Shown: positions 5,010-50,755 of the stretch, piece after piece
Layout of the letters: each line of letters starts with the position of its first letter
How positions within the stretch are numbered: position 1 is the first letter of the stretch
Source: Rubellicoccus peritrichatus
GTDB taxonomy: Bacteria > Verrucomicrobiota > Verrucomicrobiia > Opitutales > Cerasicoccaceae
DNA length: 64,000 nucleotides
Direction of reading: 5' to 3'
Assembly (NCBI RefSeq): GCF_033100135.1
Contig: NZ_CP136920.1
Span: 4,707,001-4,771,000, forward strand
Made by a program: the position numbers and the translations under genes
Notes under the pieces: model-generated
Seen by the model: the letters and a program-made list of their open reading frames with translations, nothing else
Told to the model about the DNA's origin: nothing
The model's database searches: none

Positions 5010-8000
5010 ACTTCATCCGAATCCAACCACCGGAAGGAGACTATTTTGAAGCCGCGACCGAAATCTATGTTTTCCTGGCTACTCAGATCGGCTGGTGCTA
5101 CGTCGGGAGCATCCGCCGGATCGACGTATTCATGAACCCGTTGAACGACTGCTTCGCACCAGGCTTTGGCGACTACTTGATTGAGTCTACTAGTTTCTCC
5201 GTAGGCTCGAATCCTAAAAGTGTCCGAACGTGCTGACAAGGTTGTCCCAAGAGCGGAGAGAATGTCTCCCTGAGTGACGTATCCCGCCGCCCCGGCGGCG
5301 TATCCGGCAGCCCCGGCGAGGTTATCTTCAAGCATTGTCTCAGGAAAGGCGAAGTCATATTCTTCAATATCTTGAAGTTCAATGTTCTGAGAATCTTCAC
5401 TGAACATTTCGTTGATCCTACTGTTGTCGATCGCCTCTTGAAGCGGACCTTTAAGTGCTTCACGAGTGCTCCCATCGGGGTTTCTGTTGACGAATTCCGC
5501 CAGGGAAAGAAACGGCCCCCGTTCCTTGACAACGGCAACGATCGCATTAGCCAGATCGTCGATCTGATCATTGTCCAGAACTCTGAAACCCCGCCAGCGT
5601 TCCTCGCGAATGCTTTCGCCATCGGTTGCAGGTCCGACAGGGCGGCGGTGCCGAGGAAGCGGGTTTGTTGCCACCTCGCTAACGACTTCGCTATCTTCAC
5701 CCAAAGCGTCATAATATGACACCCCTCTTTGATTCAGTGAACCAAGAACTGCCTTCCAGGCGTTCACCGAAACGGAGTTGATATTGAACGGACCTTCCAG
5801 CCAAAGGTAGGCCGCGCTTTTGCGATAGAGCTCCGGATCTGAGGCCAACTGATTCGCCACTTCGGTGGGGTTGGCGTCGCTGGACAGTGATGGTGTCAGG
5901 CGTTCGTTGAACAGCGGCTTTTCGCCATTCATAAAGCGAGTCAACACCTCATCCAGATCGCCCTGCGAGCCTCCGAAAGCGGCACCATCGTAACCGCAAA
6001 TGGTGGAGAAGTAGTAGGAATCCCAAAGCTCGTTATTCGACAACCAAGTGTGATCGAGGTAGGCGTATTCTTGTTCCTCAGGCGTTGATCCCTGCCCCCC
6101 GGAATTTGATTCCTCTACCAAGGGCGTTGACACTGCGTTCTTCGGGATCAAAGGACTCGCCCATGACTCGCCTACAGTATATGTGAAATTAGGTAAATGT
6201 CCTGAGGAGGCGAGATTGGCGTGTCGAAGCTGGGCGATAGACTGAATCGGCAGCATGGGAATTTCGTGAATTGGAAACGCACGCACACCTGTCCCCAGAG
6301 AATGCCCGGTGAAAGCAAAGCCGCGATTCTTCTCGTCAATCTCGACTCCGCTTGAACTACGAACAGGCAGCAATGACGCTTCATAGGAATACACGGCCGG
6401 GTTTTCTATCTCAGGATCCAGCTTTGTGATGTATGAAGCCGGTGAATGGAATACTCCGGGCTTGGAGGGCGAACCGGAATCAAGGGTGGTCTTACTGCTC
6501 AAACTAAACAGCGCGAAGGGCCACGCATTAACGTAATCCCTGAAAGGGGTACCACTGGCCTCGTATAGCTCCAAAGCAGTCCGGGCGCGCTCCAAGCGAA
6601 CCGGATACTGATCGTCCCCGAGACGTCCGTGCGACAGGACCTCACTTAATGCATTAATGTCTCGATAGTGAAATTCGATTACCCCCGCAGGTTCAGTGTC
6701 TCCACTTGTGTTGATAATCAGATCCACCGTGACGGAGAAGCGACCATCGGAACTCTGTGGTTGCATAGGCTGAAAGCCAACATCAACCCTATCCCCCCCG
6801 CTCAAGGGCAATACGCCGTCTATCGGAGCATCAGCGGATCGCAACAGCGGTGGCACCAGCCAGTCAATGTCAAAGCCGACCCCTTCAGTATTCCAGCCAG
6901 GCGCCAGTTCCATGCCATCACTCAAGCTGTTCTCTCGGTTTCGCCAATCAAACATCGTACTGTAGTCATCATTAATTTCTTGCTGCCAGGACCAATCAGG
7001 AGTCACCGCCGTTCCAAACACCATAGTCTCGCCCGGCTGGATCACCATGGAAGAAGTAGCGCCCAAAGAGGAAACCAAATCGATCGTGAATTGCTGAGTC
7101 GTATTGGAGTTCTCATCATGGTTAGAGTTAAGCTGATTGAGCGGGGCAGGAGCATTCAGCTGGGGTTGCCCATTAACGTAGAATTGGAAACCAATTGGGA
7201 TGTCCGCAAAGGAGATTTTCAACCCTCGGAATTCGATCGGGAGATTGTGTGGATTATAGATCGTGACGATTGGGGAGTAAATCATATGCAGCATGTAATT
7301 CGTACCATCTCCTCGCAAGCCTGCGATATTGCCCGCCCATCCTCCGTGAGGGTCGCGCACTATAGCGGAAAACACTATCTCCAATTTCGTCAGCACCGGA
7401 ACAATCGCATGCCCCAGCGCCGGTGATGGACGGGCCTCAATATTTCCCTGCACCTCTTCGTAGGGCTGATGCCCAGCTGGCAAACGGGCTTGGGCCTGGT
7501 AGCCACCTTCATCGGTGGAGGTTGCTTCAATGTCTTTGTACAGTGTGGCATACTCCTGTAGAAGATCCCAGCGAGGATTGGCGGCAGCGCTATCGACGGA
7601 AAAATCTTCGTAAATTCCATTTCCAGCGTACTGGGAAGGCAGTGTCCCATCAAAGAGCACACTCAAATCATTTTTAAATCCGCCTCTGGCTACGTCGGTT
7701 AACAAACCGCGAGACCACGTGGTCAAATCGTGGTTGAACTCGCGAAGGTCCGGCGAGCCCTCAAGAGACTGTCCGCCGGACAACGTCAGCAACCGATCTT
7801 GCCCGGCGTCGGTCCACCATTTGAAACCATTATTTCCCAAATCATTGATGGCCTCGACGCCAAATCGTCTGGCTTCACCGAGGGCGGCCTGCAAACCAAT
7901 GTCCCCATACACGTTCTCGCTCGGGGTCAGATCGACTCGCGCCTTGGCGCCTTCATCCATAACAGCATAAGCGAAACCTCCAACTACTTCTCCATTGTTT

Positions 8001-8521
8001 CCACTGATCTCAAGAACATTGGCCCACAACTCCTGGCTAGAAGACATGTCCGGCCCTAGCGAACCTTCGCCTATTAAAAGCGCTGTAACTCCACCTGTCG
8101 TATCTGGAATTTGGCTCCCATCTTCCAAAGTACTTCTATTCGGGTGCGAAACCAGCCATCGAAGGAAATTGGCATCTGCATCTCCTGATGGGGAACGAGG
8201 GTTAGGCTCATGACTTCGCCAAACTCCTGTCAGAGCAGGCGAGGCGGTATCATCCACATACTGGCCAGAGGCTGTGATCCGCTGATCATGGCCCGCTGTT
8301 TCCTGTAACTGACCAAGCGCCACCTGAAGCCCCGCCAATGCATTCTGCTGGGCCTTCTCAATGTCCTGAGCGGTCTGTGTCGCCTGAGTCTCCAAGCCCA
8401 CGATCGCAGTTAGAGAAATCCCCAGTACCAAGAGGAAGGCCATCAACATTAAGGTGACCAATAGCGCGAAACCGCTTTTGGAGGAGGGGCGCCGCCGATT
8501 CTGCACGGAAGTTTTCGACAT
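5006..8521 (-). CDS. Giant PilX/GspK-like protein of Verru_Chthon cassette A type
   Basis: About 1171 residues from ATG 8521; an ATG three codons upstream at 8530 is also possible. I prefer 8521 because this start, not the upstream one, is preserved in the duplicated copy near 9573. The N-terminus is prepilin-like: a basic stretch, then KSGFALLVTLMLMAFLLVLG, a single membrane helix beginning after a glycine as in type IV pilin processing sites. A helical AQQNALAGLQVALGQLQ segment follows, typical of the large protein in the Verru_Chthon cassette. The C-terminal region has the GspK/PilX-like combination of DQIDDLANAIV and SLAEFVNR. It is probably a membrane-anchored component of a pseudopilus-like export or surface assembly. 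Confidence 0.75.
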   Translation of the reverse strand: MSKTSVQNRRRPSSKSGFALLVTLMLMAFLLVLGISLTAIVGLETQATQTAQDIEKAQQNALAGLQVALGQLQETAGHDQRITASGQYVDDTASPALTGVWRSHEPNPRSPSGDADANFLRWLVSHPNRSTLEDGSQIPDTTGGVTALLIGEGSLGPDMSSSQELWANVLEISGNNGEVVGGFAYAVMDEGAKARVDLTPSENVYGDIGLQAALGEARRFGVEAINDLGNNGFKWWTDAGQDRLLTLSGGQSLEGSPDLREFNHDLTTWSRGLLTDVARGGFKNDLSVLFDGTLPSQYAGNGIYEDFSVDSAAANPRWDLLQEYATLYKDIEATSTDEGGYQAQARLPAGHQPYEEVQGNIEARPSPALGHAIVPVLTKLEIVFSAIVRDPHGGWAGNIAGLRGDGTNYMLHMIYSPIVTIYNPHNLPIEFRGLKISFADIPIGFQFYVNGQPQLNAPAPLNQLNSNHDENSNTTQQFTIDLVSSLGATSSMVIQPGETMVFGTAVTPDWSWQQEINDDYSTMFDWRNRENSLSDGMELAPGWNTEGVGFDIDWLVPPLLRSADAPIDGVLPLSGGDRVDVGFQPMQPQSSDGRFSVTVDLIINTSGDTEPAGVIEFHYRDINALSEVLSHGRLGDDQYPVRLERARTALELYEASGTPFRDYVNAWPFALFSLSSKTTLDSGSPSKPGVFHSPASYITKLDPEIENPAVYSYEASLLPVRSSSGVEIDEKNRGFAFTGHSLGTGVRAFPIHEIPMLPIQSIAQLRHANLASSGHLPNFTYTVGESWASPLIPKNAVSTPLVEESNSGGQGSTPEEQEYAYLDHTWLSNNELWDSYYFSTICGYDGAAFGGSQGDLDEVLTRFMNGEKPLFNERLTPSLSSDANPTEVANQLASDPELYRKSAAYLWLEGPFNINSVSVNAWKAVLGSLNQRGVSYYDALGEDSEVVSEVATNPLPRHRRPVGPATDGESIREERWRGFRVLDNDQIDDLANAIVAVVKERGPFLSLAEFVNRNPDGSTREALKGPLQEAIDNSRINEMFSEDSQNIELQDIEEYDFAFPETMLEDNLAGAAGYAAGAAGYVTQGDILSALGTTLSARSDTFRIRAYGETSRLNQVVAKAWCEAVVQRVHEYVDPADAPDVAPADLSSQENIDFGRGFKIVSFRWLDSDEV

Positions 8522-8938
8522 ATAGTACATTATATCTTATCTCTCTTGATCACTTGTGTCAATCTTTGAAGTGTTTTGACGTCAGAGTTGCCAATAGTAT
8601 GATGATTCCATGCTCATAGAAGTTGTCAGCTGATAGACCTCCGCTCCTGCAGCGAGAAACGCACCAAGTCGTAACCAAAAAGCAAACCGCCCATGGCTGC
8701 AACCAGACTTAATTATCCTGATAAACTTTAAGCTATAAGGGGTATTCATTGATATTCCAACAAGTTCTGCCTCTGAACGAGGTTAGCATATAATAGCATA
8801 TCACGACCGTTCGAAACATAGCGTATTCGCTCTTTTAACATGGACTATCTTGTTTGATATATCCTGAGAAAAGTGTCCATGATCAATGTTCGCTTCGATC
8901 TTTACTTTCACTGTCAGTCCATGCACTTTCCCAGCGCC
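8454..8938. repeat. Left arm of a long imperfect inverted duplication
   Basis: This block is the reverse complement of 9162-9640. It contains the first codons and promoter region of the giant PilX-like gene, a decayed start of a sugar-porter gene (ATG at 8749 reading leftward) and a conserved 3-prime tail of an unknown reading frame. Runs of identity exceed 40 bp (for example around 8881-8925), broken by point differences and small indels. The sugar-porter start is more degraded here than in the right arm. Confidence 0.9.
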
Positions 8939-9161
8939 AAAAAGACATAGGTTCAAGTCTCCCATAGTTACTTTTCGTTTGAAATGCAGGGTAAGCAAAG
9001 CCGTGCCTTAGGGCCCGAGCCATTCCCTTTATTTGTGCTTAATGCGGCTAGATGCTTTGGCCGCATCATCAAAAATCGATGAAAATAGCAGGCGAATGGC
9101 TGTTACTAACTGATAACTGAAACTGAACTGACACTAATAGGAATTACTCGTGCCTTCTTGA
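8939..9161. other. Spacer between the inverted arms
   Basis: A 223-bp non-coding stretch. It has one modest hairpin (about 9044-9067, ATGCGGC...GCCGCAT) without a T-run. I see no gene and no transposase-like or recombinase-like reading frame, so the duplication cannot be explained by an element carried between the arms. Confidence 0.5.
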
Positions 9162-9640
9162 CGCCGGAAAAGTGCATGGACTGACAGTGAAAGTAAAGAT
9201 CGAAGCGAACATTGACCATGGACACTTTTCTCAGGATACATCAAACAAGATAGTCCATGTTAAAAGAGCGAATACGCTATGTTTCGAACGGTCGTGATGT
9301 GCTAGTATATGTCAGCCTCGTTTAGAGGTGGGACTTGTTGAAATATCAATGAATACCCCTTACAGCTTTAAGTTTATCTGGACGATCAGTCTGGCCGCAG
9401 CCATGGGCGGTTTGCTCTTTGGTTACGACTGGGTGCGTTTCTCGCCGCAGGAGCGGAGGTCTATCGGCTGACAACTTCTATGAGCATAGAATCATCATAC
9501 TATTGTAAATTCTGACGTCAAACACTCCAAAGATTGATACAAGCGATCAAGAAAGATAAGATATAATATATCTATGTCGAAAACTTCCGTGCAGAACCGG
9601 CGACGCCCCTCCTCCAAAGTGGTTTCGCGCTAGTGGTCAC
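9162..9640. repeat. Right arm of the inverted duplication
   Basis: The right arm ends in a truncated copy of the 5-prime end of the PilX-like gene: ATGTCGAAAACTTCC at about 9573, then about 20 codons including a frame shift near 9617, stopping sharply at 9640 where unrelated sequence begins. Before this it carries the upstream region, a 40-codon sugar-porter remnant, and the end of an unknown frame. The GH2-like gene starts 100 bp further on. Confidence 0.9.
9349..9471 (+). pseudogene. N-terminal remnant of an MFS sugar porter
   Basis: From ATG 9349 the frame reads 29 residues of a typical sugar:proton symporter start, including WTISLAAAMGGLLFGYDWV, the first transmembrane helix and the G-GYD motif of the sugar porter family. 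It then runs into unrelated codons and stops at 9471. The rest of the transporter is absent. A reading frame that ends with the stop at about 9295, just upstream, is also preserved in both inverted arms. The original arrangement was therefore probably an unknown gene followed by a sugar transporter. Confidence 0.75.
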
Positions 9641-42894: not shown

Positions 42895-43419
42895 TTACAA
42901 GACCTGATCGCGGCCGAAAAAACGCTTACACTGAATTACAGCATGTTCATGCATACTTGAACCAGCAAATGACATGCAAAGGTCTTTGAGAATGACCGGG
43001 CGCATGCCTGCTCGCATCACATCGATCCCGGTCTGGAGGACACACATGTCTGTATCCATGCCGCAAATGTGGATTGTTTCGCCAGGTTTGGCTGCAAGAA
43101 AGGTCGCTGCATCCTCTGTGTAAGCTGAAATGAATGATTTCCTAGTCACATGAAATTGATTCTGCAGCAATCCGTCGGTCTTAATTGCGAGTTCGTGCCC
43201 GGTTGAACCAACCTTGGCAGGTGCCCATTTTTTTAGCCTAAAAAACATCGAATTCGGATCCAATTCAATCTGACTCGCAACTACACGCTGAAAATGCGGC
43301 ATCATTGCATCAATCCCCGAAACCACCGACTCTGTGTTTGAATTCAGGAACTGCTTTTGCGTATCGACAACAATCAGCCGATGGCACTCAGAGACGTGTA
43401 GGCCTGGATACGGATACAT
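42895..43419 (-). CDS. Isochorismatase-like cysteine hydrolase
   Basis: About 174 residues from ATG 43419; the frame is open to a GTG at 43539, but the family normally starts a few residues before the LIVVDTQ strand. The catalytic Asp is in RLIVVDTQKQF. The nucleophilic cysteine is in HICGMDTDMCVLQTGIDVMRAG, shown here around residues 124-145, with the lysine expected in between (KKWAPAK or the KSF loop). The family hydrolyses amides or vinyl ethers such as nicotinamide, carbamates or isochorismate. The substrate here is unknown. It is divergent from a PocR-AraC regulator. Confidence 0.82.
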   Translation of the reverse strand: MYPYPGLHVSECHRLIVVDTQKQFLNSNTESVVSGIDAMMPHFQRVVASQIELDPNSMFFRLKKWAPAKVGSTGHELAIKTDGLLQNQFHVTRKSFISAYTEDAATFLAAKPGETIHICGMDTDMCVLQTGIDVMRAGMRPVILKDLCMSFAGSSMHEHAVIQCKRFFGRDQVL

Positions 43420-43668
43420 GACTGAAATGGAGATACATAATTTTGGCCGACCATCAACAGAGAACTCAATGAGGTATGCTGGATGGAAGATCCATGAAGC
43501 ATGAGGATCCCCCCAGAAGGGATTGCCCATTACTGGCACTAATATGTAAGTCCACTATTCATACTAACTGAAAGCCAATTGCATCTACGAGAACGGTTTG
43601 AGTGAAAGCGTTTGCTATATGACCTGATAATGATGAAAAATCTTACCAGTAAAATTTAAAAGCAGTCA

Positions 43669-44625
43669 ATGAAGGCACTTGAATCGGAATCCATGGTTTC
43701 CAATGGCAGCCCTGTCAATCTCAGTTCGACTCTCGCGAATTCAGAAGTTTTTCTTACTTTCCAGTCTGCATACAAGAATCTGACAGGCATGAGCCTATGG
43801 CTGAAATCCAGCTCCAAAGACAGCTCATCTTGTGGCAAATGTGAGGAAGCCAATCCGTTTTGCTATTTGCTTTCCGCTCACAAAAAGTGCTGTCGAGAAT
43901 GCCTTGGTTATCAGACGCACGGAAAACAGAACCCAGACCGAGCGGCGAATACCAATCGATGCTTTGCCGGAATTTCAAACACGCAAATTCCAATCTCGAG
44001 GAATGAGCGCACCATTGGTTGCTTAAGCACCGGTTTTGTCTCACTGGATGATCAGGAGCCTGACAACTTTCAAAAAATTAAACGTAAGCTGAGGGATGAT
44101 GGCATCGATGCAGACATGCCTTCACTGGAAAAAGCCTGGAAGCAAACCCAGCTCATTCAAAAGTCAGACTACGACTCCAGCATTCAACTCGCTTCCACTT
44201 TTGCCAACCATCTAGCCATGATGGCTGAACATGAGGTGCCCAACTTGATGTTAGCAACCCGGAGCAACTGCAACCCTGCCCTGGAACGGGCTATAGATTA
44301 TATTAAAGCACACTTGCAGGATCCACTTTCACTCGATGAAGTAGCGAATGCTGTAAACATCAGCCGATGCTACTTCAGCCGGCTTTTCAAAGAAAAATTC
44401 GGAGTCAGTTTCACAACTTATGTCTCCAGCCTGAGAGTAGAACAAACAAAACAGCTGCTCATCAGGTCCGATCTCAGTATCACAGAAATCGCCTTCAAGG
44501 TTGGGTTCCAATCGATGTCCCAGTTCAACCGAACATTCAAGGACTTCGAACAGCAAACTCCGAGCACCTTTCGAAAGAGAACAAAAGGTAGCGGCCAGCG
44601 TCCCCGCTGGACATCTGTAGATTAA
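43669..44625 (+). CDS. AraC-family regulator with PocR-type cysteine-rich sensor
   Basis: A 318-residue protein. Residues about 25-150 form a PocR-like ligand-binding domain with its cysteine pattern (SSCGKCEEANPFC, HKKCCRECLGY, NRCFAGI) and a following PI--NERTIGCLSTGFV strand. The C-terminal 100 residues are the AraC helix-turn-helix pair (LSLDEVANAVNISRCYFSRL, ITEIAFKVGFQSMSQFNRTF). PocR domains are thought to bind small alcohol- or hydrocarbon-type ligands. It is divergent from the isochorismatase-like gene and may regulate it. Confidence 0.88.
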   Translation: MKALESESMVSNGSPVNLSSTLANSEVFLTFQSAYKNLTGMSLWLKSSSKDSSSCGKCEEANPFCYLLSAHKKCCRECLGYQTHGKQNPDRAANTNRCFAGISNTQIPISRNERTIGCLSTGFVSLDDQEPDNFQKIKRKLRDDGIDADMPSLEKAWKQTQLIQKSDYDSSIQLASTFANHLAMMAEHEVPNLMLATRSNCNPALERAIDYIKAHLQDPLSLDEVANAVNISRCYFSRLFKEKFGVSFTTYVSSLRVEQTKQLLIRSDLSITEIAFKVGFQSMSQFNRTFKDFEQQTPSTFRKRTKGSGQRPRWTSVD

Positions 44626-44635
44626 GAAAACGCAA

Positions 44636-44657
44636 TGTCCGGCGAGGACTCCGGACA
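44636..44657. terminator. Hairpin between convergent genes
   Basis: TGTCCGG and CCGGACA flank an eight-base loop between the stops of the AraC gene and the outer-membrane-like gene. The T-run is weak on both strands. Confidence 0.45.
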
Positions 44658-44687
44658 CTACCCAATACAAGAAAGTCGATCGAATCC

Positions 44688-45641
44688 TCAAAACCTCCAG
44701 ACGACGTCAACCGTTGTGCGGTTCTCCATGAGATTTGTGTTACTTTGTGTCAATGGGATCTCAAAGGCAAAGCCAACATCAAGTGAATCCAAAGGACGTA
44801 CTCGGAAACCGAATCCAAGCGTGACAATGTCATGCTGGTCAGAATTCGATGCCCCAAAGTTGATCAAATCGCCTCCCTCAAACGTAACAATACCTGGCAC
44901 TGCTCCACCAGCCTGCGCAGGATAACGCGGAGAGCCATTGCCAGTATCAACCACGTGGAATGTATTCAACTCAACCAGTGGGAAAAAGAAATCCTTCACA
45001 TTGTAGCTGGCGTGCCAGCTGGTGTTAATTTCCTTACTGCCCGAGTCGTTAAAGGGCAGAATCGCGCCAACCTGACCGATGACTTGAATTTCATCCCAAA
45101 TCTTGATGAATGAAATCGACGGTGTTGCAGCAGAATAGTTCCCACCCTGAAAGACACCACGGCTACCGGTCGGAAACTCAAATATTGCCTTCAGCGCAAC
45201 AGCCAGTTGGTCTTCCGGGTCATAATAAAAAGCCCATTTGGCGCCAGCAGCCAAGTTGGCAAAGCCGGAATCACTCGTCAGTGTGCTATCAGGATCAAAT
45301 ACAATATAGCCGTCCTTGGCTGCGATCAACGAAATGGTTTCATCCAACGCAAATTCAGCCTGGACTGCGTAGACCTGAAAATTGCCTCCTAATGACAAAT
45401 CACCTGCCGTGGTGCTGATAGAACCAGGCATGTTCTGGTTAATAAAGAACGGATGTATGTTCGACATCGGCAAGGGCAAATCAAAGTAAACCGGATTTGT
45501 AATCGGCCTGATCGCATTGCTAAAACCTTCATCGCTCGATGTTACTTCAGTTTGCTCGAAATTTTCATTATCTGTCCTTGTCGGATCACTTTGAGCCCAA
45601 GCCACGGAACCAAGCAGGCAAACCAAACACGCCAATTTCAT
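44688..45641 (-). CDS. Outer-membrane beta-barrel-like protein
   Basis: About 317 residues from ATG 45641, where a signal peptide begins (KLACLVCLLGSVAWAQS); an ATG 18 bp upstream is also possible. The mature part alternates hydrophobic and polar residues as in beta strands (AGAKWAFYY, AVALKAIFEFPTG, IQVIGQVGAILPF) and ends TTVDVVWRF with a terminal phenylalanine, the usual insertion signal for outer-membrane barrels. It resembles MetA/phenol-degradation-type channel proteins. Probably a porin or small-molecule channel. Confidence 0.72.
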   Translation of the reverse strand: MKLACLVCLLGSVAWAQSDPTRTDNENFEQTEVTSSDEGFSNAIRPITNPVYFDLPLPMSNIHPFFINQNMPGSISTTAGDLSLGGNFQVYAVQAEFALDETISLIAAKDGYIVFDPDSTLTSDSGFANLAAGAKWAFYYDPEDQLAVALKAIFEFPTGSRGVFQGGNYSAATPSISFIKIWDEIQVIGQVGAILPFNDSGSKEINTSWHASYNVKDFFFPLVELNTFHVVDTGNGSPRYPAQAGGAVPGIVTFEGGDLINFGASNSDQHDIVTLGFGFRVRPLDSLDVGFAFEIPLTQSNTNLMENRTTVDVVWRF

Positions 45642-45973
45642 GTTATTATAGATTTTCATATTATGTGCATTCTTTTGCAGTTTAGTAATCAGTTAGAATT
45701 TCTTTCACATTACCTGAGAAGTGCTTCAACGAGATGTCCCCATACTTCCCAGGATTGGAAACGAGCCGGGACAAGTCATTATTAGATCTGGTTTAGCGAA
45801 GTAATTAATAAAGCACATCTTATCGTGAATCCCTCCACTTTCCTCCGCATTTCTTGCTAAACCTTCGGTCAATATTTGTCATTTGTCCTGGGATTATCAG
45901 GGTAGATGAAATGCGCTTTGCCACAGAGAAATGCTTGCGGGGAGAAGTGCTATTAACATACTGATGTACAACG
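45642..45973. other. Intergenic region between divergent genes
   Basis: About 330 bp without a gene. It must hold the promoters of the outer-membrane-like gene (minus) and the GTP-cyclohydrolase-II-like operon (plus), but I see no convincing -35/-10 pair or riboswitch. In particular I do not recognise the conserved parts of an FMN riboswitch, which argues against ordinary riboflavin control. Confidence 0.4.
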
Positions 45974-47569
45974 ATGTCCAAAAATCCCAAAGCCACTGCC
46001 GATTCGGTCGAGAATATGACCGAACATAAGACAATCGACGTCAACAGCCTGCCCGAATGGCTGAAGGAGTATTCACAGTATGCCTCAACCTATAGAGAAG
46101 ACGAAGCCCTTGAACACCCCGTCCATGGAAGAACAGTCTATCTGGCCCACACTGCTGTACCAACCCGGTTTGGAGATTTTCGGGCCTGCATTTTTCAGGA
46201 CATTATTCATAAGGGTTACATCATCGCTTTAACCTTTGGAGACGTCCGACATGCCAAAGAACTTCACACACGGATGCACTCCAGCTGTGTCACAAGTGAA
46301 ACACTTGGCGGATGTGACTGTGACTGCATCCAGCAGCTCGAAGGAGCGATGGAGAAAATCGCAGACAGCGGACAGGGAGTTCTCTTTTATCTCCTGCAGG
46401 AAGGGCGAGGTGTCGGCTATTCAGCCAAGGCAAGAGATCGAATGCTCGTTCAGGCTAGCGGGGATACGCTTTCCACTTTCGATGCTTATAAAATTCTGGG
46501 ACTGAAAAAGGATTACCGCCAATACCCTAATATTGCTGATATTGTCCATATCCTTGGAATAGAAGCGGAATGGATTATCCTGACTAATAATCCAGATAAA
46601 GTAGACGCAATGAAACGGAACGGGCTCAAGGTTGCAGGAACAAAAACCATCGAATACGAGCCTGGACCTTTTAATCTTTTCTATCTAAAGTCGAAAAGGG
46701 AATCGGGGCACAAGTTGAGTCGCCCCAGCCAAATCCCGATGGCCGACATCAAGCTTCCCGAACCGGTCATCCCTTTTAAACCGAAGCGGCTCGAACAGGC
46801 AGAACGCTTTATCTATATGGCCAGCTATCTGTTGCCCATCCGCCCGATCGACGACGAAATTGTTATTCCCTATGAATCTGTTCGTGAAATACTAGGTGAT
46901 ACAGCCGTTGACAAATATACGACTGGCAGGCGGCCACTCATTCGTGAATTTGAATCTCTCCGTGGCAATCGCCTACTGCTCAAGATCAATCCAAAGGAAA
47001 TGAAACGACGCTCAAAAACACCGGAAGGAAATCCTCTGGAGCGTCTTCTGATCGAGCCCTACTGGTTTCGGGTTCATGTCTACTATGATATCGTCAGTGG
47101 AGACGATCTTGTGGTGCTGACTCATGGAAATGCCAAGCCCTATGAGAGTCCGATCGTTCGTGTTCAGAGTGAATCCATTCTCAATCGCTTCCCGGTCAGA
47201 TTTGACGACAACAAAGCAAAGTACAATCGGGCAATCCAGCACATTGTTCGTTATGGCAGTGGCGCAGTTGTCCTCGTTTACCAGGATGGACGCGGCGCTG
47301 GTTTTGGCGCTTTCGCCATTGACCGTATGCTGATTGAAAAAAGAATCAGTACGAGCACCAGGGAGTCCTATGAAAAACTGAATATCCCATTTGATCAGCG
47401 CGATTATGAATGCGTTTTTCAAGTGCTGAAAAGCCATCTTCCGAGTCCAAACATTCAGATGGTCATGAATTCACCCAACAGTCTTGTTCAGAAGAGCGAG
47501 TATGCTCAGGCCCTGCAACAAAGTGGCCTCAATGTAACCGACTGGATCTTCCTTGAATCAGAAAGCTAA
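45974..47569 (+). CDS. Tandem GTP-cyclohydrolase-II-like protein
   Basis: A 531-residue protein with two RibA-like halves. In the first (residues about 50-260) the zinc-binding cysteines are intact: Cys105, Cys116 and Cys118 in HSSCVTSETLGGCDCDCIQQ, with the QEGRGVGYSAK active-site loop. In the second (residues about 330-530) the loop survives as YQDGRGAGFGAFAIDRM, but the cysteines are gone (VRVQSESILNRFPVRF). The first half should open the guanine ring of GTP or a related purine/pyrimidine; the second may be structural or bind substrate. No DHBP synthase is fused, and the next two genes are not riboflavin genes. URC1-type proteins of uracil catabolism are an alternative. Confidence 0.82.
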   Translation: MSKNPKATADSVENMTEHKTIDVNSLPEWLKEYSQYASTYREDEALEHPVHGRTVYLAHTAVPTRFGDFRACIFQDIIHKGYIIALTFGDVRHAKELHTRMHSSCVTSETLGGCDCDCIQQLEGAMEKIADSGQGVLFYLLQEGRGVGYSAKARDRMLVQASGDTLSTFDAYKILGLKKDYRQYPNIADIVHILGIEAEWIILTNNPDKVDAMKRNGLKVAGTKTIEYEPGPFNLFYLKSKRESGHKLSRPSQIPMADIKLPEPVIPFKPKRLEQAERFIYMASYLLPIRPIDDEIVIPYESVREILGDTAVDKYTTGRRPLIREFESLRGNRLLLKINPKEMKRRSKTPEGNPLERLLIEPYWFRVHVYYDIVSGDDLVVLTHGNAKPYESPIVRVQSESILNRFPVRFDDNKAKYNRAIQHIVRYGSGAVVLVYQDGRGAGFGAFAIDRMLIEKRISTSTRESYEKLNIPFDQRDYECVFQVLKSHLPSPNIQMVMNSPNSLVQKSEYAQALQQSGLNVTDWIFLESES

Positions 47570-47572
47570 GCG

Positions 47573-48646
47573 ATGTCCACGACTCTTGGTCACGAAACAC
47601 TAAAAGTCCGTATTGAATCGATTCCTGGTCATCTGCAATCGATTCTTCGCGCTCCTCCGCCTCAGGTTAAAGCATTAAAGCAGGCGCCTTCCGTTGTGAC
47701 CACCGGACTCGGCAGCTCCGAGGCTACTGCACGCTACCTCACCTCGCTCCTCAATCGCAGTGGAACTGTTCGGTCGGAGTTTCTACCGCACTCAGTGTTT
47801 TATGGTGAACTACCGTCCTATGAAAACCGCCCACACATTGTATTATTTTCACAGGGTCTCTCACCCAACACTGAAATCGTGTTGGCTCAACGGCACCACT
47901 TTTCCGGATTAACTCTCGTAACAGCATCGACTCCTGAAGGTCAGGAAAAAGCAGGAAAACCAAAGCGAGCCCAAATACTTCGCGACCTTATTGCTGAAGA
48001 TAATACTATCGTTCGGCACCCCATTGAAAATGAATACGAAATCCTGCCAAGGGTAGTTGGGCCGATTTGTGCAGAACTAACCTGCCTTCGAATCGCTTCC
48101 GAGGTTCTCAGTCCAAGTATGCTTCCACTGCCAGATGAATCGACACTTATCTCAGCCTGCCGCGGGCCATTTCTTTTACCCGATGAACTTGACGCATGGG
48201 CCACCGAGCTACTTGAAGGTGTCGACTTCTTCTTCACCAATCGCGAATCCACTTATGCACAGAATCTCGCTGCCAAGATTCTTGAAACCATCTTCCGCCC
48301 ACTACCCAGGCTTTATGATGCCTTTCACTACTCACATGGTCCATTCCAGGTAGATCGATCACTCGGTGGAAGGAAATGGATCTTTGCCGGACCGGAAAAA
48401 TCCGCCATTGATCTAGTGAAGCGGTTAACTCCCCTCTTCCAACGCACTGGCCCGACTCGTGTCATCCAATCGCCATTGCCTGAGCCGTATGCTTTATTCT
48501 ATTACGAACAATTTCTTAACACTGTGGTGCTTCGCGCCGCCGAAATCGCTCAGGTCGATCTGATTAACTGGCCAGGCAAAGGGGAAGATGGTGAAGGTTA
48601 TTCCTTATCACAGCCCTATATGGCTCCAAACAAGATGCCATTATGA
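47573..48646 (+). CDS. SIS-domain (sugar isomerase-like) protein
   Basis: A 357-residue cytoplasmic protein with two SIS halves. The first has VVTTGLGSSEATARYLTSLL and IVLFSQGLSPNTEIVL, equivalent to the phosphosugar-binding G-GSS and S-SG loops. The second has YDAFHYSHGPFQ, like the E-KHGP signature of GlmS/AgaS-type isomerases. It likely isomerises or deaminates a phosphosugar, possibly the ribosyl part of the product of the preceding enzyme. It starts 3 bp after that gene, and its stop overlaps the next start (ATGA), so the three proteins should be made together. Confidence 0.82.
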   Translation: MSTTLGHETLKVRIESIPGHLQSILRAPPPQVKALKQAPSVVTTGLGSSEATARYLTSLLNRSGTVRSEFLPHSVFYGELPSYENRPHIVLFSQGLSPNTEIVLAQRHHFSGLTLVTASTPEGQEKAGKPKRAQILRDLIAEDNTIVRHPIENEYEILPRVVGPICAELTCLRIASEVLSPSMLPLPDESTLISACRGPFLLPDELDAWATELLEGVDFFFTNRESTYAQNLAAKILETIFRPLPRLYDAFHYSHGPFQVDRSLGGRKWIFAGPEKSAIDLVKRLTPLFQRTGPTRVIQSPLPEPYALFYYEQFLNTVVLRAAEIAQVDLINWPGKGEDGEGYSLSQPYMAPNKMPL

Positions 48647-49881
48647 ACGACTCCTTGAACGGGAAAATCAAAGACTGCATAGTCCTTGCAGGACCGGATC
48701 TTGAACCAAGAGAATGTCAGGCATTCGAATACGAAAGTGGCATCATCACTCGAATGGATTTGGGTCAACCCGCATCTACGCCTGTTGGAGCGAAACAAGT
48801 AATCATCCCCGGGTTGGTCAACGGCCATACGCATGTCGGCGATGCATTCCTCGCGGATGTTGCGACCAATATGACATTAGCCGAAGCTTTCTTCCGACCC
48901 AACGGTTTCAAATATCGAGCCCTATCGCAAATCTCCCCCGATGATCATGTGGCGCACATGACGGAGTTCCTTAGAGGCATGGCCAGCTCTGGCACAATCG
49001 CACATTTTGATTTTCGCGAGCAAGGAGTTGAAGGCTGCCATCGCCTCCGCAAAGCATCGACAGATAGCGGTGTGCGATCCATCATCCTGAGTCAGCTAAA
49101 TCACTCTCCCTTTTCCGAAAGCGAACTAAGTGAAGCCACCCTCCCCCTTCCAGAATCCACACGAGCTGAAATAACCAAACTTCTCGAAGTAGCCGATGGT
49201 TTTTCTGAAAGCACCATGAACGATCTGACCGATCATGGCTGGGTTGAAATCCGTGAAATGGCAAAAGCGGCAGGCAAAACCTGCGCCGTTCATTGCCTGG
49301 AAGACGCCTCCTACCGCGCAACAAGTATCAAGCGAACTGGTAGAGGCGATCTTGAGCGAGCAATCGAACTTCTTGATCCTGATCTTATTATTCACTTAAC
49401 CGTAGCCAATGATGATGAGATTGAATTGCTCGCGAAATCCGGTATTCCAGCCGTCATCAATCCAAGGGCCAACGCAAGTCTCGGTTTGCCCCTGCCTCCC
49501 ATCGCACGTCTCTTGCGGGCTGGTGTCCCACTACTTATCGGTACAGACAACGGGATTCTAAACGGCCCCAATCTTTTTGCAGAAATGGATTTCACCTATC
49601 GCCTCGCTCGCTCTCAAGCGGGAACAAATGATCCGGTTCAGCCACTTGAAATTCTCCGAATGACCACCTCCAACCTGAAGAAAACGCGCTGGCGTGATGA
49701 GCTACCAGGACAGCTTGCAATTGGTCTGCCTGCGACTTTCGCCATAGTTGATTTTTCCACACCATGGCTTGCAACTTCAAGGAACCTTCATGCCGCACTC
49801 GTTACTCGGGTGACACCAGCAGACATCCAAAGAACTGTGCGATCAGGACGAACGATTTATTCAAGTTCTCCCAGCACGTAA
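48643..49881 (+). CDS. Amidohydrolase-superfamily deaminase-like enzyme
   Basis: A 412-residue protein with the metal-site landmarks of the amidohydrolase superfamily: HTHVGDAF after VIIPGLVNG, the AVHCLEDAS histidine strand, the IIHLTVANDDE histidine, and LIGTDNGILNGPNLF with the catalytic aspartate. This arrangement fits the cytosine deaminase/guanine deaminase/TRZ-ATZ branch that removes amino groups from nitrogen heterocycles. It overlaps the SIS gene by four bases. I infer that it acts on a pyrimidine-like product made by the first enzyme of the operon. It converges with the phosphoribosyltransferase gene. Confidence 0.85.
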   Translation: MNDSLNGKIKDCIVLAGPDLEPRECQAFEYESGIITRMDLGQPASTPVGAKQVIIPGLVNGHTHVGDAFLADVATNMTLAEAFFRPNGFKYRALSQISPDDHVAHMTEFLRGMASSGTIAHFDFREQGVEGCHRLRKASTDSGVRSIILSQLNHSPFSESELSEATLPLPESTRAEITKLLEVADGFSESTMNDLTDHGWVEIREMAKAAGKTCAVHCLEDASYRATSIKRTGRGDLERAIELLDPDLIIHLTVANDDEIELLAKSGIPAVINPRANASLGLPLPPIARLLRAGVPLLIGTDNGILNGPNLFAEMDFTYRLARSQAGTNDPVQPLEILRMTTSNLKKTRWRDELPGQLAIGLPATFAIVDFSTPWLATSRNLHAALVTRVTPADIQRTVRSGRTIYSSSPST

Positions 49882-49909: not shown

Positions 49910-50362
49910 TCAACCTTCCCAGGGAAAGATGATCCAGCTTGATGTCTCTTTAACGTATAATTGCGGGCGCACGATTGAAGTCGGCTTGTAGTAAAGCGTT
50001 GCAATAGTGACCTCAGGCTGGGTCAATGCCTTTAAACGACTCATCAGATAGTCAGAAGTCTTGCCGCTATCTGCCAGATCGTCGACCAAAAGCACATGTC
50101 CTTTACACCGTGTCAGAACTTCTTCCGGAGTATCGCATTGAATATCTCCCTGCTTCCGGTCTTCTCCATAGCTCTTGACCTCCACTGGTGTGAATGGGAC
50201 TCCAAGCCTGTGTGAAAGAACAACCCCGATAGGCAGCCCGCCGCGACTGATCCCAACAACACGATCAATCGTATGGGATGCATGAATCTCTCTCGCGCCT
50301 TCGGTCAAGGTATCGAGCATGCTTCCAAATTCTTCCCACGTAAGGTATTCCTGATTCGCCAT
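49910..50362 (-). CDS. Purine-type phosphoribosyltransferase (xanthine/hypoxanthine-like)
   Basis: A 150-residue protein with the PRPP-binding signature VLLVDDLADSGKTSDYL near residues 90-106 and the upstream VVGISRGGLPIGVVLSHRLG strand typical of type I PRTases. Length and order fit Gpt-like xanthine-guanine PRTases that join a base to PRPP. It converges on the amidohydrolase with 28 bp between stops. Whether it belongs to the same pathway is open: it may salvage the purine that feeds, or the base released by, the operon. Confidence 0.87.
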   Translation of the reverse strand: MANQEYLTWEEFGSMLDTLTEGAREIHASHTIDRVVGISRGGLPIGVVLSHRLGVPFTPVEVKSYGEDRKQGDIQCDTPEEVLTRCKGHVLLVDDLADSGKTSDYLMSRLKALTQPEVTIATLYYKPTSIVRPQLYVKETSSWIIFPWEG

Positions 50363-50560
50363 AGCAGCTAATCAAGCAGCTCACGTTCCACCATCAACCT
50401 TAAATCATCCAAATGAATCGTTTGAGGCAATTGGATTGCTACCATCACTCCAACTGGAGCCACCATTCAGATTCAGTGGTGATAACCTTCTATTTCTTCT
50501 TTTTAAAATACTACTTGACGTTGATTACCAAGACCGATTCATTCACCTGCTTCTGTTTAT

Positions 50561-50636
50561 GGGGCCGTAGCTCAGTTGGAAGAGCGCTTGCATGGCATGC
50601 AAGAGGTCGACGGTTCGATCCCGTTCGGCTCCACCA
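50561..50636 (+). tRNA. tRNA-Ala(GGC)
   Basis: Acceptor GGGGCCG pairs with CGGCTCC (one G-T pair). The D-arm is GCTCAGTTGGAAGAGC. The anticodon stem CTTGC/GCAAG encloses ATGGCAT with anticodon GGC. The T-arm holds GTTCGATC, and CCA is encoded. Confidence 0.96.
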
Positions 50637-50755
50637 GTTTTTCGTTCAAACCAATCGGTCCCTGCAAAACGATTCCACTGCCTAGGCCGTGTCTTCAAAG
50701 CTCGGAACGAGTAGGCGAAGGTTATTTTTAGTTATAGGCGTATCGAGCCAGCCCT

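Follow-up and report, generated by a model that had tools for sequence, protein, structure and literature searches.

Genomic Context of the Operon

The stretch of DNA analyzed here (the window, 64,000 nucleotides) spans positions 4707001-4771000 of the single contig, C1, of the 5.8 Mb genome of Rubellicoccus peritrichatus (Verrucomicrobiota). It harbors three open reading frames (ORFs) on the same strand, encoding a tandem GTP-cyclohydrolase-II-like protein (TGCH), an SIS-fold protein, and an amidohydrolase (Table 1). The first two are separated by 3 bp, and the last two overlap by 4 bp (ATGA). Pfam detects GTP_cyclohydro2 twice in TGCH (9.5e-54), Amidohydro_1 in the amidohydrolase (9e-24), and Pribosyltran in a gene converging on the operon, the nearest PDB match of which is a purine phosphoribosyltransferase (PRTase). 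An Rfam search of the 40-56 kb region of the window returned one tRNA and no FMN riboswitch. The packing of the three genes, the convergent purine-type PRTase, and the absence of an upstream FMN riboswitch had all been claimed in an earlier note on this DNA, and they are confirmed, as is its "SIS-like" label for the middle gene (see below). Its "tandem GTP cyclohydrolase II (GCH II)" label holds for the presence of two PF00925 stretches, but not for the second domain, which is degenerate. An ORF called at 50413-50685 overlies the tRNA gene and is considered spurious.

Table 1. Features of the operon and its 3' flank, in window coordinates.
Feature	Position	Strand	Basis
TGCH, tandem GTP-cyclohydrolase-II-like, 531 aa	45974-47569	+	ORF; PF00925 found twice; 17/388 genomes have full-length relatives
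TGCH domain 1 (residues about 57-249), RibA-like	46142-46720	+	Alignment; C105/C116/C118, QEGRG, D180-x-R182, TNNPDK invariant; R156 at RibA Tyr105
TGCH domain 2 (residues about 362-527), degenerate cyclohydrolase	47057-47554	+	Zinc cysteines absent; D474-x-R476-D477 retained
SIS-fold phosphosugar isomerase-like protein, 357 aa	47573-48646	+	Invariant GSSEA (47-51), K235/E238, H255-G256; fold match
Amidohydrolase-superfamily protein, 412 aa	48643-49881	+	H62-x-H64, H217-x-x-E220, H251, D302; deaminase-type metal site
Purine-type PRTase, converging on the operon	49910-50362	-	Pfam Pribosyltran; related PRTase adjoins the amidohydrolase in G157 and G015
tRNA gene beyond the PRTase	50561-50633	+	Rfam

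Conservation of the Three Genes

Among 388 sampled Verrucomicrobiota genomes, 17 carry a full-length TGCH. The SIS family is found in 16, every one of them a TGCH genome (G080 is the sole TGCH carrier devoid of it), and the amidohydrolase in 18, namely all 16 genomes with both TGCH and SIS, plus G361 and G364. Each comparison yields a hypergeometric P of about 2e-27 (e.g., 16 of 16 SIS genomes falling among the 17 TGCH genomes of 388), a value uncorrected for kinship, the true strength being less. The pairwise divergences of the three proteins also correlate with each other (Mantel at most 1/2000). Carriers belong to several families within one order and to one family outside it, and they include the complete genome of IMCC26134 (CP011265). 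In most loci, the SIS gene lies downstream of TGCH on the same strand. The amidohydrolase, however, is often unlinked and located elsewhere in the genome, so that the co-occurrence reflects more than the hitch-hiking of neighbors. The association of the three genes is therefore real. It supports the claim of the earlier note that they act in one pathway, and the adjacency is clearly not unique to this strain, a circumstance that the note had named as one that would speak against its idea.

Beyond these genomes, a scan of 84,980 species with degenerate patterns specific to the window's proteins found full-length TGCH relatives in Verrucomicrobiota or PVC records only. In a plasmid collection, no SIS-family protein was detected, the GCH II relatives were of partial length (those with an annotation being mostly RibA or RibBA), and the amidohydrolases were distant and mostly haloarchaeal, with unrelated neighbors at the two loci inspected. 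One carrier, G045, possesses, besides its full-length TGCH, a second and broken copy, with pieces in different frames (locus L049, G045:C1:475000-494000, about 7959-9212 on the minus strand) and a RidA gene nearby. Another record, titled Akkermansia muciniphila (L007, CAMDHP010000006.1), holds a TGCH very similar to the Opitutaceae copies and 54% identical to that of the window, with no SIS gene nearby; its label may be wrong.

Active Sites of TGCH

Alignment of TGCH domain 1 with E. coli RibA places R100, H102, S103, C105, C116, and C118 at positions R49, H51, S52, C54, C65, and C67, and Q121, E143-G144-R145, D180, R182, T204, and K209 at positions Q70, E92-G93-R94, D126, R128, T149, and K154. 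These include the RibA positions that we take, from its annotation, to bind GTP. The three zinc cysteines are invariant in 22 TGCH sequences, and the counterparts of the RibA catalytic Asp126 and Arg128 are invariant as well. Structurally, domain 1 shares with RibA (PDB ID: 2bz0) the fold, the zinc site, and the D-x-R, EGR, and TNNP motifs, at 31-32% identity. Two departures from RibA are invariant, however: Glu53 is replaced by S104, and Tyr105 by R156. In RibA, which turns GTP into 2,5-diamino-6-ribosylamino-4-pyrimidinone 5'-phosphate, the catalytic Tyr105 is needed for full conversion with formate release. GCH II homologues that have lost this Tyr, such as a Streptomyces enzyme with Met in its place, reportedly retain the formyl group and yield a formamidopyrimidine product. 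By analogy, because Tyr105 is missing, TGCH may halt at a formamidopyrimidine nucleotide; this is offered as a lead only.

Domain 2 keeps R396, S399, and E400 besides the aspartate-arginine motif given in Table 1, and none of the zinc ligands. The tandem thus reads plausibly as one catalytic domain followed by one pseudo-domain, a further difference from RibA. TGCH passes the subfamily profile NF001591 (178 bits vs. 148), but falls below the cut-off of the equivalog TIGR00505 (144.3 vs. 205.85 bits). Since both Tyr105 and this cut-off fail, TGCH is not assignable to RibA as judged from these features, nor does it have rib genes as neighbors.

SIS-Fold Protein and Amidohydrolase

The AlphaFold model of the middle protein, obtained with a 20-sequence alignment (pLDDT 86), is matched by Foldseek to GlmS isomerase domains and NagB-II (E about 1e-10, TM about 0.6-0.7), which identifies it, at the level of the model, as a double-SIS-fold protein. 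In contrast, the identity with these proteins is of 12-18%, there is no sequence-profile link, and Pfam and NCBIfam searches gave no match for this protein. The residues invariant in its family resemble, by motif, the GlmS loops, the K-E pair, and the HGP positions, a likeness that sequence methods could not confirm.

The six polar residues listed for the amidohydrolase in Table 1 are invariant in 21 aligned sequences, and they form an H-x-H, HxxE, H, D set that we take, with its metal ligands and HxxE motif, to be typical of the deaminase branch. Its best NCBIfam profile, NF005552 ("chlorohydrolase"), is matched with 256 bits, below the cut-off of 294, and names no substrate.

Gene Neighborhoods in Relatives

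Clustering of the ORFs of 23 loci and the window, together with family scans, reveals a recurrent set of partners: a PF00860 permease, an FAA hydrolase, an amidase, two creatininase-family proteins (one degenerate), the formamidase FmdA, RidA, and DUF3891, with an SBF-like transporter as an occasional addition. In most Opitutaceae-type loci, the permease is immediately 5' of TGCH, and it matches the adenine/guanine permeases AZG1 (E 1e-67) and AZG2. Where the amidohydrolase is unlinked from TGCH, it is often accompanied by FmdA, RidA, the amidase, the FAA hydrolase, and DUF3891. The most compact example is that of G406 (L140:8619-17474), in which nine genes on one strand encode TGCH, SIS, DUF3891, the amidohydrolase, both creatininase-family proteins, FmdA, RidA, and the amidase. 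A PRTase adjoins the amidohydrolase in three genomes, those of the window, G157, and G015. Taken together, these neighbors make up the kind of gene set that a pathway for the breakdown of an imported purine base would have. R. peritrichatus keeps a reduced version of it, the core only; its one PF00860 permease is encoded far from the operon.

With its three genes and no degradative neighbors, the window's version taken in isolation would also suit the biosynthesis of a small nucleotide-derived metabolite (a deazapurine, a pterin, or a modified base), as GCH-type enzymes often begin such pathways. The permease, amidase, formamidase, creatininase-family proteins, RidA, and FAA hydrolase in the loci of relatives argue against it, and this reading is regarded as quite improbable.

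DUF3891 (PF13030; L140:11201-12127 and many other loci) displays HDD and SMHT motifs, which suggest a metal hydrolase. A glycerate kinase (recognized by eye) that lies close to TGCH in G039, G048, and G157 might have supplied a later step, but was discarded, as it apparently reflects housekeeping synteny in two of the three. Upstream of the operon (42895-45659), the window carries an isochorismatase-family gene, a PocR/AraC-type regulator, and an outer-membrane-protein-like gene; these were set aside as pathway members, being absent from the other loci.

A Candidate Route for Purine Degradation

On balance, we favor with modest confidence the view that the operon supplies the central part of a pathway degrading nucleobases, most probably purines. 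Its three genes most likely encode the first steps, in which ring opening begins with the five-membered ring of a nucleotide, for example GTP. In the scheme that follows, each reaction, each substrate, and their order are deduced from the observed gene content, conservation, fold, and motifs. A purine base would be imported, in relatives by the AZG1-type permease suggested by gene linkage, and converted to a nucleotide by the linked PRTase. The zinc cyclohydrolase domain of TGCH would then hydrolyze the imidazole ring of GTP to a formamidopyrimidine nucleotide, the non-zinc domain 2 probably completing a pseudo-dimer. The SIS protein might open the ribosylamine phosphate, either releasing ribose phosphate or making an Amadori isomer, and the amidohydrolase would take the exocyclic amino group off the freed aminopyrimidine. 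In relatives, the creatininase-family proteins, FmdA, the amidase, RidA, and the FAA hydrolase could remove the formyl group and ammonia and open the second ring.

The creatininase-family neighbors fit this scheme chemically, because the creatininase-family protein BrbF is a proven deformylase of 2-amino-5-formylamino-6-ribosylamino-4(3H)-pyrimidinone 5'-phosphate, a GTP-derived formamidopyrimidine nucleotide (PMC9478397). This substrate of BrbF is what a GCH II without the Tyr would be expected to produce. BrbF serves riboflavin synthesis, however, whereas the creatininase-family neighbors of relatives sit in a catabolic cluster. The scheme is also supported by the RibA residues kept in domain 1, among them Q121, the equivalent of E. 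coli Q70, at a position that is Tyr in UTP cyclohydrolase.

Several observations weigh against such a pathway. The genome of R. peritrichatus, searched for creatininase and FmdA genes, has neither, so that in this organism the pathway must be shortened or rely on different enzymes. The AlphaFold model of TGCH is poor (pLDDT 65), and hhalign of the SIS family against GlmS gave nothing significant, the match being by fold only. The consumption of GTP for catabolism is energetically odd, and Rfam searches of the window's 40-56 kb region and of 21 loci of relatives returned no riboswitch, of the purine class or any other, nor another regulatory RNA. In a 52-genome sample, the XDH-type molybdenum hydroxylase domain MoCoBD_1 is absent from R. 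peritrichatus and from six of the seven other TGCH genomes, which is consistent with the proposed pathway but not discriminating, as the domain is present in only 11 of the 44 TGCH-free genomes. Lastly, the genome has no canonical GCH II, which leaves some room for a role of TGCH in riboflavin synthesis (see below).

The AZG relatives of the permease are known for adenine and guanine, but the three enzymes may have another ring specificity. Instead of ordinary guanine or xanthine, the pathway could degrade a different nitrogen heterocycle, such as a modified or damaged purine, a cytokinin, or a pterin-like compound. The PRTase linkage and the RibA-like nucleotide-binding residues favor an ordinary purine nucleotide, and we consider this variant very unlikely. 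The earlier note had proposed an undescribed use of a purine-derived ring; the purine permease and the battery of hydrolases support its suggestion of nucleoside or nucleobase catabolism, whereas its other suggestions, a modified base or a pterin-like cofactor, find no support.

In the known purine routes (XDH-urate oxidation, xanthinase, and the reductive urate pathway), cleavage starts at the pyrimidine ring (PMC12507026). The purine pathway proposed here would likely play the same role, but it would attack the imidazole ring of a nucleotide first, without need for XDH. It could tentatively form a fourth class of purine degradation, somewhat short of an even chance in our estimate, in which the imidazole ring of GTP is the first to be cleaved, by a tandem cyclohydrolase devoid of the Tyr, the SIS protein strips the sugar phosphate, and the deaminase and hydrolases mineralize the rest, with no oxygen, XDH, or urate involved. 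The literature searched, with most subscription journals outside reach, contains no account of such an operon. The gene set is conserved and its catabolic reading coherent, with a putative purine substrate. It would be a variant of cyclohydrolase-initiated nucleobase catabolism, a known kind, and possibly a categorically new purine route. If true, this imidazole-first route would be chemically unlike the three studied pathways and could dispense with oxygen and XDH. It would also provide functions for the TGCH, SIS, and amidohydrolase families, make DUF3891 a candidate partner, and constitute the purine counterpart of the URC uracil pathway.

Comparison with UTP Cyclohydrolase

One alternative is a URC-like pathway of pyrimidine catabolism, in which TGCH would cleave the UTP or UMP ring in the manner of UTP cyclohydrolase (PDB ID: 7eev, 7ej3), and the SIS protein and the amidohydrolase would process a ribosylurea-type product. 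UTP cyclohydrolase, likewise a long protein, is among the TGCH fold matches over about 300 columns, and it is to our knowledge the sole characterized catabolic homologue of GCH II. Sequence similarity is low, however: with phmmer, domain 1 scores far better against RibA (E 4e-27) than against UTP cyclohydrolase (7eev, E 6e-6), and TGCH reaches 29 bits with NF005536, for a cut-off of 403. From the position of its match, we infer that the latter profile represents the UTP cyclohydrolase type. In the alignment, the UTP enzyme has a Tyr at the Gln70 position, where TGCH has a Gln, and it retains the Tyr at the Tyr105 position. Furthermore, the linked permease is of the adenine/guanine type and the PRTase of the purine type. 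Pyrimidine catabolism of the URC kind is held to be unlikely. URC4 (DUF1688) is not among the recurrent neighbor families identified, no dedicated genome search having been made for it. By its sequence, TGCH does not appear to be a UTP cyclohydrolase, but the idea of a catabolic enzyme with a GCH II fold is the same as in URC, for which PMC12507026 cites UTP cyclohydrolase in uracil catabolism, a precedent for the family in nucleobase degradation.

The Riboflavin Question

The remaining alternative is that TGCH is the riboflavin GTP cyclohydrolase of the organism, replacing RibA, the other two genes being incidental or acting on side products for salvage. R. peritrichatus possesses RibD, RibB(X), and RibH (a lumazine synthase recognized by eye, adjoining RibBA), and no GTP cyclohydrolase III was found in its genome. 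Its only other PF00925 protein is RibBA (C1:1499804-1500907; L051:9805-10908), the cyclohydrolase domain of which reads VQSEN...KFHGH...PNGG, having lost both the zinc cysteines and the EGR motif. The earlier note, which held that the three genes are not riboflavin genes, had named as grounds against itself that the genome hold no other ribA than TGCH and that its riboflavin genes, located elsewhere, come without a GCH II. This is literally the situation found, yet it does not refute the idea, because TGCH-free relatives are also devoid of canonical GCH II, and G408 has both a canonical 211-residue RibA and TGCH. The same degenerate RibBA is the sole match in genomes lacking both TGCH and RibA, whether of the same family (G128, G164, G229) or not (G001, G010, G131), and many sampled genomes of the order are in this case. 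In addition, the SIS protein and the amidohydrolase accompany TGCH in every genome save G080, and the neighbors are catabolic. A riboflavin role is thus deemed improbable, and the conserved association, the purine permease, and the hydrolase battery support the view that the three genes serve another pathway. Because the degenerate RibBA is the only match in genomes without TGCH or RibA, the lineage appears to make riboflavin by another first step, without a canonical GCH II. Almost every genome sampled from the order (L108-L133) has the degenerate RibBA, a separate RibA of 211-221 residues being observed only in G408, G367, and G418.

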